Assembly (NCBI RefSeq): GCF_013626205.1
Contig: NZ_QHJE01000001.1
Location: forward strand, 1,116,001 to 1,180,000
Direction: 5' to 3'
Source of the DNA: Hyphomicrobium methylovorum
GTDB taxonomy: Bacteria; Pseudomonadota; Alphaproteobacteria; Rhizobiales; Hyphomicrobiaceae
Length of the DNA stretch: 64,000 nt
Numbering within the stretch: the first letter of the stretch is position 1; each line of letters begins with the position of its first letter. The position numbers and the translations under genes were made by a program. Of this stretch, positions 1,446 to 3,253 are shown piece by piece. The notes under the pieces are model-generated. The model saw only the letters and a list, made by a program, of their open reading frames with translations, was not told the DNA's origin and made no database searches.

Positions 1446-1608
1446 TATCAATTATCACGCCATAGCGATTTTTTGTACCAATTTTCATGACTTTGTATCA
1501 TTTTTCATGATAGGATGCATCCTGTATCGTTTTTCACAGGAGGGCACCGTTTTTCATGGCCAGAGCGCCGCAGAACCGATTTTCAGGCCCCGTAACCGTT
1601 TTTCATGA
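1446..1608. repeat. Seven-copy 15-bp motif array with alternating 20/29-bp spacing (putative operator or iteron array)
   Basis: Copies begin at 1446 (TATCAATTATCACG), 1476 (TACCAATTTTCATGA), 1496 (TATCATTTTTCATGA), 1525 (TATCGTTTTTCACAG), 1545 (CACCGTTTTTCATGG), 1574 (AACCGATTTTCAGGC) and 1594 (AACCGTTTTTCATGA). From the second copy the steps are 20, 29, 20, 29 and 20 bp, so pairs recur every 49 bp. The 1496 copy is a perfect inverted repeat (TATCAT, 5-bp spacer, ATGATA, 1496-1512). The array spans the divergent region between the genes starting at 1441 and 1556; the copy at 1545 contains the Fic ATG and the last two lie in the coding sequence. Read as a binding array for an autoregulator; the binding protein is unknown. 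Confidence 0.7.
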
Positions 1609-3097
1609 ACGGCGGCTGCCGGAGGTTGCGACACCCGTTGGCTATGCGGCGCTGATTGATGCGTATGGCTTGGCCGTTCCGGTTCCGGCCACCCTCTCTG
1701 CAATCGGCACACGTCATCGCCGCACGGAGCAGCAGGGCTGGCGGATATTCGGGCCGCGATATGCGCCGGATGCCAGCCTCGAAGGCCACCTCACATTCGC
1801 TCTCAAGCATGAGGGACTTGATCTTGGGGTGCTCAAGCGCCTGTTCCTTGCCGTGGGTTCGGCGGAAATAGAAAGGCTGGTGCGAGCCGAGCCGACGGGG
1901 CGTTATGCGCGCCGCATCTGGTTTTTGTATGAGTGGCTGACGGGGGCGCGGCTTGACCTGCCGGATGCTGCCGCAGGCACATATGTGGCCGCGCTTGATC
2001 CCAAGTTGCAGTGGGATGTTCCCGCTGTGAATTCACGGCGGCACAGGGTTAAAAACAACCTGCCCGGCACGGCTGAGTTTTGCCCTCTGGTGTTCAGAAC
2101 GGAAAAGCTGGAAGCGTTCGTTGCATTAAACCTTGCCGAGCGGGCGCGGGCGGTGGTGGCCGATGTTCCGCGCGATTTGCTGGCGCGTACGGCGGCCTTT
2201 TTGTTGCTCAAGGATTCAAAATCAAGTTACGTCATTGAAGGCGAGCATCCGCCTCAAGACCGGATACAGCGGTGGGGGCGGGCGATTGGGGAGGCAGGCC
2301 GCAGGCCGCTCGATCTTGACGAACTTTTGAGGCTTCAGGCCATCGTTATTGGCGATGCGCGGTTTGTGCGGCTGGGCCTTCGTCATGAAGGTGGGTTTGT
2401 TGGCGAGCATGATCGCGACACGCGCATGCCGCTGCCCGATCATATCAGCGCGCGGCCTGAAGACCTGCAAAGTCTTGTGCGCGGGATGGCGGAGTTTGAC
2501 CGCAGCGCTTCAGAGCATCTTGACCCGGTGATCGGGGCGGCGGCGCTTGCGTTTGGGTTCGTGTTTGTTCACCCGTTTGAAGATGGCAACGGCAGAATAC
2601 ACCGCTATCTCATCCACCACGTTCTGGGGCGCAGGGGGTTTAATCCTGCGGGACTGGTCTTTCCTGTTTCCTCAGCAATTCTCAATAGCATTGATGAGTA
2701 TCGCCGGGTGCTGGAGGCTTATTCCACGCGCGTATTGCCGGTCATCCAGTGGCAGCCGACGCCGGGCGGCAATGTCAGCGTTTTGAATGATACGGGCGAT
2801 TTTTACCGCTTCTTTGATGCAACCCCGCAGGCTGAGTTTTTGTTTGAGTGCGTAAGAAAGACGATTGAGGAAGACCTGCCCGCTGAGGCTGAGTATCTGC
2901 GCAAATACGATGAATTCCGCGCCGGAGTTGAGAGGATCATTGATATGCCGGAACAGACGATTGATCTGTTGTTCCGCATGCTGAAGCAAAACAACGGAAG
3001 GCTTTCACAAAGAGCGCGGCAGCGTGAATTCGAGCAACTCACGAATGAGGAAGCAGATTCCATCGAGGATATTTACGGGCGAACATTCGCCGGATAA
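1556..3097 (+). CDS. Fic-domain protein (probable AMP-transferase) with inhibitory motif
   Basis: 513 residues. Start ATG at 1556 has AGGAGGG at 1539-1545. The Fic catalytic motif HPFEDGNGRIHR is complete at residues 339-350; the His attacks and the D/N-G-R part binds nucleotide and Mg in proteins that usually transfer AMP to target side chains. A regulatory motif S-x-x-x-E-G at residues 224-229 (SYVIEG) matches the inhibitory helix of class II Fic proteins, in which the Glu blocks ATP placement. Residues 1-200 form an extra N-terminal region; the C-terminus (about 420-513) is helical and may be a winged-helix-like domain. Residues 6-17 are encoded by two copies of the DNA motif array. Target unknown; the context suggests a mobile, possibly toxin-antitoxin-like unit. 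Confidence 0.9.
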   Translation: MARAPQNRFSGPVTVFHERRLPEVATPVGYAALIDAYGLAVPVPATLSAIGTRHRRTEQQGWRIFGPRYAPDASLEGHLTFALKHEGLDLGVLKRLFLAVGSAEIERLVRAEPTGRYARRIWFLYEWLTGARLDLPDAAAGTYVAALDPKLQWDVPAVNSRRHRVKNNLPGTAEFCPLVFRTEKLEAFVALNLAERARAVVADVPRDLLARTAAFLLLKDSKSSYVIEGEHPPQDRIQRWGRAIGEAGRRPLDLDELLRLQAIVIGDARFVRLGLRHEGGFVGEHDRDTRMPLPDHISARPEDLQSLVRGMAEFDRSASEHLDPVIGAAALAFGFVFVHPFEDGNGRIHRYLIHHVLGRRGFNPAGLVFPVSSAILNSIDEYRRVLEAYSTRVLPVIQWQPTPGGNVSVLNDTGDFYRFFDATPQAEFLFECVRKTIEEDLPAEAEYLRKYDEFRAGVERIIDMPEQTIDLLFRMLKQNNGRLSQRARQREFEQLTNEEADSIEDIYGRTFAG

Positions 3098-3142
3098 TCA
3101 GCTTAAATCTTCCGCCCAAAAATTTCCCGCACTGTGCTATAC

Positions 3143-3253
3143 TCAGAGAATCGGTACTGGCTCAAACAGTTGAGAATGCTGGGCTAAATCGGCTTCAAGC
3201 TCTTCCAGAGCGGCTAGCAGATTGTTCGAAGTATTCTCCGCCGGGTGCGCCAT
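3143..3253 (-). CDS. 36-residue small ORF, paralogue of the one at 958-1068
   Basis: ATG is the complement of 3251-3253 and TGA ends at 3143, giving MAHPAENTSNNLLAALEELE followed by ADLAQHSQLFEPVPIL. Length is identical to the ORF at 958-1068, with shared N-x-S-N-x-LL, DLA and SQLFEP. No strong ribosome-binding site is visible. It sits just past the end of the Fic gene on the opposite strand, so the two copies bracket the Fic unit. Either a duplicated small gene or part of a repeated element end; unknown function. Confidence 0.48.
   Translation of the reverse strand: MAHPAENTSNNLLAALEELEADLAQHSQLFEPVPIL

Follow-up and report, generated by a model that had tools for sequence, protein, structure and literature searches.

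For Fic enzymes that lack a recognisable partner gene, the means of control are mostly unclear. The window analysed here, a stretch of 64,000 nucleotides from Hyphomicrobium methylovorum, gives this question a concrete form, as an array of repeats lies across the start of a Fic gene (1556-3097, forward strand), and it must be asked what this array is, what reads it and to what end. A preliminary description had proposed cooperative binding by a dimeric autoregulator, which might be the Fic protein, a small divergent protein or a factor from a larger element.

The array in the window

Seven related sites had been placed at 1446, 1476, 1496, 1525, 1545, 1574 and 1594 with a regular alternation of steps; all of these coordinates were confirmed, and the steps from site to site are 30, 20, 29, 20, 29 and 20 bp. 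The sites share one orientation (forward strand), and six of them contain the exact word TTTTCA. Site 1 (1446-1462, TATCAATTATCACGCCA) has the weakest core, TTATCA, and lies 5' of the putative promoter discussed below; site 2 (1476-1492, TACCAATTTTCATGACT) falls, in relatives, within the 17-bp spacer of that sigma70-like promoter; and site 3 (1496-1512, TATCATTTTTCATGATA), near the expected transcription start, is indeed the perfect 6-5-6 inverted repeat that had been described, TATCAT-TTTTC-ATGATA. Site 4 (1525-1541, TATCGTTTTTCACAGGA) overlaps a Shine-Dalgarno-like AGGAGGG (1538-1544), site 5 (1545-1561, CACCGTTTTTCATGGCC) holds the Fic start codon (ATG, 1556-1558), and sites 6 (1574-1590, AACCGATTTTCAGGCCC; codons F9-S10-G11) and 7 (1594-1610, AACCGTTTTTCATGAAC; codons V15-F16-H17) lie in the coding region. 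Together the seven sites take in sequence ahead of the Fic gene, the ribosome-binding region and the first 17 codons with the ATG, ending at about 1608; the earlier reading that it contains the start codon and runs into the gene therefore stands.

Such order is far from the chance level. The stretch 1446-1620 contains six copies of TTTTCA, whereas 1000 dinucleotide shuffles of 1440-1620 averaged 0.5 copies and never exceeded three. In the window, TTTTCA-like words (at most one mismatch) at steps of 20, 29 or 30 bp form a chain of up to seven members, compared to one or two when the whole window was shuffled 20 times. Across the 3.45-Mb genome of the organism, exact TTTTCA-N14-TTTTCA occurs three times and TTTTCA-N23-TTTTCA twice, every one of them within the array. 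When one mismatch was allowed, TTTTCA-N14-TTTTCA was found at 15 places outside the array in the same genome and the reversed control at four. Tandem duplication as the origin of the repeats was rejected because the spacers between sites are little conserved.

Conservation of the register among close relatives

A contig scan recovered 406 relatives of the Fic protein, and the best 80 of the 406 (67-96% protein identity) were kept, giving 81 sequences with the window. Phylum labels may be wrong for some of the sequences, which come from metagenome bins, and because the 81 loci are mutually related, binomial p-values are too small. Scored with a position weight matrix whose training set partly overlapped the scored sites, all 81 sequences had four to seven sites of at least 6 bits in the same register (median six; all seven in 19), as against two sites at most at any of 1805 random anchors. 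Sites 1 to 7 reached this threshold in 86, 89, 85, 53, 91, 98 and 100% of the 81 sequences, respectively, site 4 being the least conserved, and when the search for the four upstream sites was shifted by 7-13 bp only 2-5% did so.

At two places the 20-bp step was kept almost without exception (65 of 66 pairs and 80 of 80), and at the third, which involves the weakest site, in 39 of 52 pairs; the longer steps measured 29 or 30 bp, with 29 bp in 70 of the 76 pairs at one of them. Within 400 bp of the start, just 12 of 50,232 forward positions outside the array reached 9 bits, and matches of at least 9 bits numbered 478 on the forward strand versus 76 on the reverse, many of the latter lying beside part-palindromic sites. 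The same motif and register occurred in loci recorded under several phyla. Homologous Fic loci lacking the motif, or carrying it at random spacing, had been named as evidence against an ordered operator; among close homologs the register was retained throughout. The array is a family trait of the Fic gene.

Selection on the DNA inside the gene

Codon usage at the sites within the gene was compared with that of the same codons elsewhere in the same genes, using 34 representatives of less than 80% identity. Phenylalanine 9 was encoded by TTT in 33 of 33 cases (30% elsewhere in the gene), serine 10 by TCA in 30 of 32 (8.7% elsewhere), valine 15 by GTT in 29 of 33 (19% elsewhere) and phenylalanine 16 by TTT in 30 of 31 (30% elsewhere). 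Third codon positions were conserved at 0.88-1.0 in the site cores and mostly at 0.35-0.59 in other codons, codon 6 (0.76) being an exception. Even the eight of the 81 sequences without valine at codon 15 (four ATT, two CTT, one GCT and one TTT) tended to keep the bases. As codons are frozen at the sites, the DNA itself is under selection, and a purely protein-level cause of the coding-region sites was rejected.

A constraint at the DNA level thus seems to govern the start of the Fic gene. Residues 1-17 (1556-1606, forward strand), partly encoded by sites 5-7, lie outside the match to the PDC-S24 profile described below, and operator sites within the gene seem also to have shaped the N-terminus of the protein. 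In one relative (L103) the sites precede the start and the protein is without the FSGPVTVF stretch; in two others, from Polymorphobacter (L157) and Rhizobium tumorigenes (L158), a motif of the GTGAATGATTTT kind occurs together with an N-terminus, read from the DNA, of the form MGEWP...DFH.

Position of the putative promoter

When 28 of the 34 representatives were aligned on the TTTTCA of site 2, a TTG stood at -12 (conserved at 0.71, 0.71 and 0.61) and a T-A-..-A-T pattern at +11 (0.75-0.79), so that the 17-bp spacer surrounds site 2. The corresponding place in the window is 1470-1498 on the forward strand, with a -35 TTG and a -10 TAgaAT, where the hexamers are poor. A consensus scan of 1380-1620 in the window gave no sigma70-like promoter, and an unconstrained search for the best sigma70 match picked exactly the proposed register in just seven of the 28 representatives; the promoter is therefore proposed from the family. 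Transcription would start near site 3.

This placement bears on whether the repeats act in the mRNA, in translational control or as an RNA partner of the Fic protein. Sites 4-7 would indeed lie near the 5' end of the transcript, including the ribosome-binding region and the start codon. Against this, sites 1 and 2 are upstream of the transcription start suggested by relatives (the window itself being without a clear promoter), distances of 20, 30 and 50 bp correspond to turns of DNA, and the spacers show little conservation; we regard an action in mRNA as extremely unlikely.

Confinement to the Fic gene

The exact triple TTTTCA-N14-TTTTCA-N23/24-TTTTCA was found at seven places in 385 alphaproteobacterial genomes, and the reversed control pattern at none. 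Four of the places, in three genomes, were at intact Fic-family genes (two in the window array and one each in genomes G180 and G293); two, in G197, preceded a Fic gene broken off past its N-terminal part; and one, in G187, lay inside an unrelated 350-codon frame in a contig stretch of 35% G+C. In G197, a six-site array with steps of 20, 29, 20, 30 and 20 bp survives before the truncated gene (L173, 1498-1625). The single-pair pattern does have a background, with 15 of 43 places in 19 genomes at the Fic locus. A host regulon was rejected, since the pair search in the organism's own genome and the triple search in the 385 genomes point essentially to the Fic gene alone.

The neighbourhood offers no comparably constant companion. 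Among frames of at least 60 codons in flanks of up to 3 kb, no neighbour family was shared by more than eight of the 81 loci, a result that also bears on the adjacent conserved antitoxin gene expected of a type II toxin-antitoxin module; the eight loci with the most-shared neighbours were Mesorhizobium with the same downstream genes. This argues against a factor from a larger element as the binder, which the preliminary description had allowed for. Comparison of 20 of 50 neighbour ORFs with Pfam, and of 10 of these 20 with PADLOC, gave two integrases, TrbI, HipA, PDC-S62 and QatC as well as housekeeping genes; the neighbourhood is no clear defence island. Two micro-ORFs of about 36 codons (956-1066 and 3142-3252, both on the reverse strand), alike and both ending in ...SQLFEP..., flank the Fic gene; the SQLFE peptide was absent from the fetched loci other than copies of the window region.

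The small divergent protein, encoded by an 89-residue ORF on the reverse strand (1172-1441), had also been put forward as the regulator, and its ORF starts only 5 bp from site 1. It was shared with a single one of the 80 other loci (L004), and this locus has no ATG at the corresponding place, so 1441 is not a conserved start; residues 35-80 matched inside longer ORFs (146-204 codons) of three genomes, namely the organism's own (G000:C1:1080402-1080539) and two relatives. We therefore rejected its product as a regulator and give this reading practically no weight. The ORF is judged a truncated fragment outside the system, probably a gene cut upon arrival of the Fic module. Of the earlier statement that the array touches both divergent start regions, the Fic half is upheld and the 1441 half is doubtful.

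Remote relatives: the motif changes, the lattice stays

Whole-genome searches covered 385 class-level and 398 phylum-level genomes, with relatives down to 30% identity; a Fic relative was present in 32 genomes of the former set and 37 of the latter, the organism's own included. A further set of 63 loci (18 near and 45 remote, the latter at 30-58% identity) was analysed with starts taken from match coordinates and 300 shuffles; L097, whose 5' end is not on the contig, was excluded from this analysis and from the Mantel test. In a lag analysis that assumed no motif, the 45 remote loci showed lags of 20 bp in 29, 30 bp in 26 and 50 bp in 19, compared to 3.8, 4.0 and 3.6 loci expected by chance and one, six and two in a control inside the gene. 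The three-site scan reached p 0.01 in 42 of the 63 loci, namely 15 of the 18 near and 27 of the 45 remote ones, and missed it in the other 21 (3 of 18 and 18 of 45), a third of the set. The 21 comprise three loci whose start regions look empty (L090, L093 and L156) and 18 more. An array score above 24 was obtained in 47 of the 63 start regions and in none of the 63 control stretches. A further locus, L155, showed an array-like triple (p 0.003).

The repeated word itself differs among subfamilies: TTTTCGAC was found in L106-L109 and L149, TTTACGACA in L110, TATCGTTTTTCCA in L111, AGCGTNNNTTTTTG among L132-L140 and in L150, AACGTTTTGTTGC in L141, and GGTAAAAAAAACT in L146, L147 and L152. Motif distance and protein distance rose together (Mantel r 0.63, with none of 500 permutations as high, in 78 loci chosen for having an array; L155, L156, L090, L093, the plasmid loci L161 and L164 and loci with array scores below 26 were left out). 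Part of this correlation reflects shared descent, owing to the physical linkage of motif and gene, and a segment-wise test of the N-terminal, Fic and C-terminal parts (partial values 0.16-0.26) did not separate the domains.

Paralogs in the same genome also differ, one genome carrying TTTTTCAGG at L124 and TTTTCGAC at L149, and another GTAATCATTTTT at L129 and GCGTATGATTTTG at L150; one host factor can therefore hardly serve both. These pairs weigh against recognition of the array by a host DNA-binding protein rather than by the Fic protein. The sites are AT-rich, as those of nucleoid proteins are, and DNA binding by the Fic protein is itself a prediction; on the other side, the same motif and register recur across several recorded phyla, yet almost only at the Fic gene, and no neighbour family is widely shared. 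A host protein as the reader is, in our estimate, very unlikely.

Relatives are also found on plasmids, with 276 plasmid records holding one at E 1e-20 (125 Pseudomonas; 54 typed conjugative); phage records held no Fic relative at E 1e-10. Ten plasmid relatives were fetched of at least 45, and four of the ten missed p 0.01; in L159 and L163, which lack annotation, the scan began at the start of the match. In the relative on a Spartinivicinus ruber plasmid (L166, 28% identity), copies of GTAAGTGTTTTT recur every 20 bp upstream of position 892, before the Fic gene. A Bosea sp. RAC05 plasmid relative (L161) has TGGCAGAACGCTC-like repeats upstream of 892, by eye in the opposite orientation too, unlike the window array.

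The Fic gene and its product

The 513-residue protein matches the PADLOC profile PDC-S24 over residues 25-512 (profile positions 4-490 of 497, E 5.9e-207), leaving its first 24 residues outside, and this profile matches all 54 aligned sequences. A Pfam Fic domain (PF02661; residues 251-357, E 2.3e-14, 54.5 bits versus a cut-off of 24) is likewise present in 54 of 54. The FIC active-site motif HPFEDGNGRIHR (residues 339-350; 2570-2605, forward strand) is intact and agrees with HxFx(D/E)GNGRxxR, and HP[FLY]xDGNGRxxR occurs in 54 of 54. The inhibitory motif SYVIEG (residues 224-229; 2225-2242, forward strand) is of the N-terminal (class II) type, agreeing with [S/T]xxxE[G/N], a pattern that occurs within residues 200-245 in 52 of the 54 sequences. 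The protein is thus predicted to be a self-inhibited, AMP-transferring enzyme of a candidate phage-defence family. No homolog was found at E 1e-20 in 21 other species of the genus, so the gene was probably acquired.

The AlphaFold model (mean pLDDT 93.4) gave CbFic2 (8cil) as the top fold match (Z 23.6, rmsd 3.9, 293 aligned), followed by SoFic (3eqx; Z 22.2, rmsd 5.8) and, below both, CccR (7xux; Z 20.5, rmsd 8.3, 284 residues). The aligned ranges, which give ends only, end at residue 513 for 8cil and 3eqx and at 502 for 7xux. Three modelled C-terminal helices (residues 466-478, 485-491 and 497-511; 2951-3088, forward strand) presumably form a helix-turn-helix or winged helix-turn-helix, and by analogy with CccR they are likely the DNA reader. 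The N-terminal domain (about residues 13-197; 1592-2146, forward strand) has no Pfam match. Folded alone, it gave two usable structural matches, both of AbiEi type and weak (1zel: Z 6.8, rmsd 5.2, 156 aligned; 6y8q: Z 3.7, rmsd 4.8, 107 aligned); Foldseek returned E 1.0 and 3.6 against two AbiEi-type entries, and an alignment profile of the domain gave a single match among solved structures, at E 0.95. This modelled resemblance to AbiEi-family antitoxins is too weak for an assignment, and the domain may have another fold.

Proposed function of the array

A cooperative dimeric autoregulator, as first suggested, fits these data, and of the three binders considered the Fic protein is strongly favoured, because the array is almost confined to the Fic gene, the motif follows the subfamily and paralogs differ. 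We consider it probable that the Fic protein represses its own gene by binding there as a phased oligomer. The C-terminal helix-turn-helix of Fic dimers would probably read two sites 20 bp, or about two turns, apart, the near-rigid 20-bp step suggesting one dimer on two direct repeats, and the step of 29-30 bp (about three turns) would join one dimer to the next, giving a repeat every 49-50 bp. Such an oligomer could cover a stretch that begins upstream of the promoter, takes in the start codon and reaches codon 17, and could repress the gene; self-repression may hold a self-inhibited, potentially harmful AMP-transferring enzyme at a low level.

Alternatively, the Fic protein may bind the array for a main purpose other than repression, the array gathering Fic molecules into DNA-bound oligomers with a changed enzymatic state (switched on, or to deAMPylation). 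CbFic2, the top fold match, is reported to be stimulated and dimerised by DNA via its C-terminal winged helix-turn-helix (PMC10628234), and an array of seven sites, extending 50 bp into the coding sequence, exceeds the needs of a simple repressor. The sites that in relatives lie between the proposed -35 and -10 elements and over the start codon are, however, in the usual places of a repressor, and the work on CbFic2 used random DNA. We judge such switching unlikely as the main purpose, and an enzymatic role of the array is nevertheless a serious alternative or addition to repression.

A more speculative extension, which we hold to be distinctly unlikely, is that the array serves as a DNA-based antitoxin and sensor. 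Inactive Fic protein would be stored on it as a phased filament, and phage takeover, in which host DNA is degraded, displaced or copied, would free both enzyme and promoter. If so, a single gene and its lattice would each make up one half of a defence system; the recognition code would have changed repeatedly on a fixed geometry, and the lattice would even dictate the first residues of the protein.

Under the favoured autorepression by the Fic protein, candidate PDC-S24 defence genes gain a testable model of control. Members of a large, apparently mobile Fic family seem to bring along regulatory DNA of their own, in a module whose geometry is fixed, and the subfamilies with different motifs on the same lattice are a natural data set for changes of specificity in a DNA-binding domain.

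Comparison with known systems

The AbiEi and Rv2827c antitoxins (PMC7319586) are autoregulators that bind repeats in their own promoters; they differ in being separate antitoxins with a nucleotidyltransferase-like toxin partner, and in using inverted repeats. RptR (PMC12255303) is a defence-island repressor acting on a series of direct repeats, but it is a small dedicated regulator with three repeats of core TAGCTA and not a self-regulating enzyme. The PADLOC entry PDC-S24 (candidate phage defence) covers the protein and says nothing of a cis array, and no paper was found under the name PDC-S24 in the open-access literature.

Among Fic proteins, CbFic2 and SoFic, both among the best fold matches, are class II enzymes with a C-terminal winged helix-turn-helix, and anti-phage action of Sofic has been reported (PMC12249575). 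They carry a DUF4172 N-terminus instead of the N-terminal domain of the window family (PMC10628234), and the passages on them contain no operator array. A search of the open-access literature, mostly of titles and the beginnings of abstracts, likewise yielded no operator array for a Fic gene. The nearest precedent is CccR of Yersinia pseudotuberculosis, which aligns in fold with the model of the window protein. It is a Fic protein whose C-terminal helix-turn-helix binds AGATAATCAT-N26-ATGATAATCT in its own promoter and represses cccR (PMC9755527). CccR has about 380 residues and is a type VI secretion (T6SS) effector, whereas the window Fic protein has 513 residues with an extra N-terminal domain; the CccR operator consists of two inverted 10-bp boxes 26 bp apart at one promoter, whereas the window has direct repeats at 20 and 29-30 bp that enter the coding region. 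Autorepression by a Fic protein is thus already known from CccR, and the seven-site, phased lattice that extends into the coding region and switches its motif looks new.
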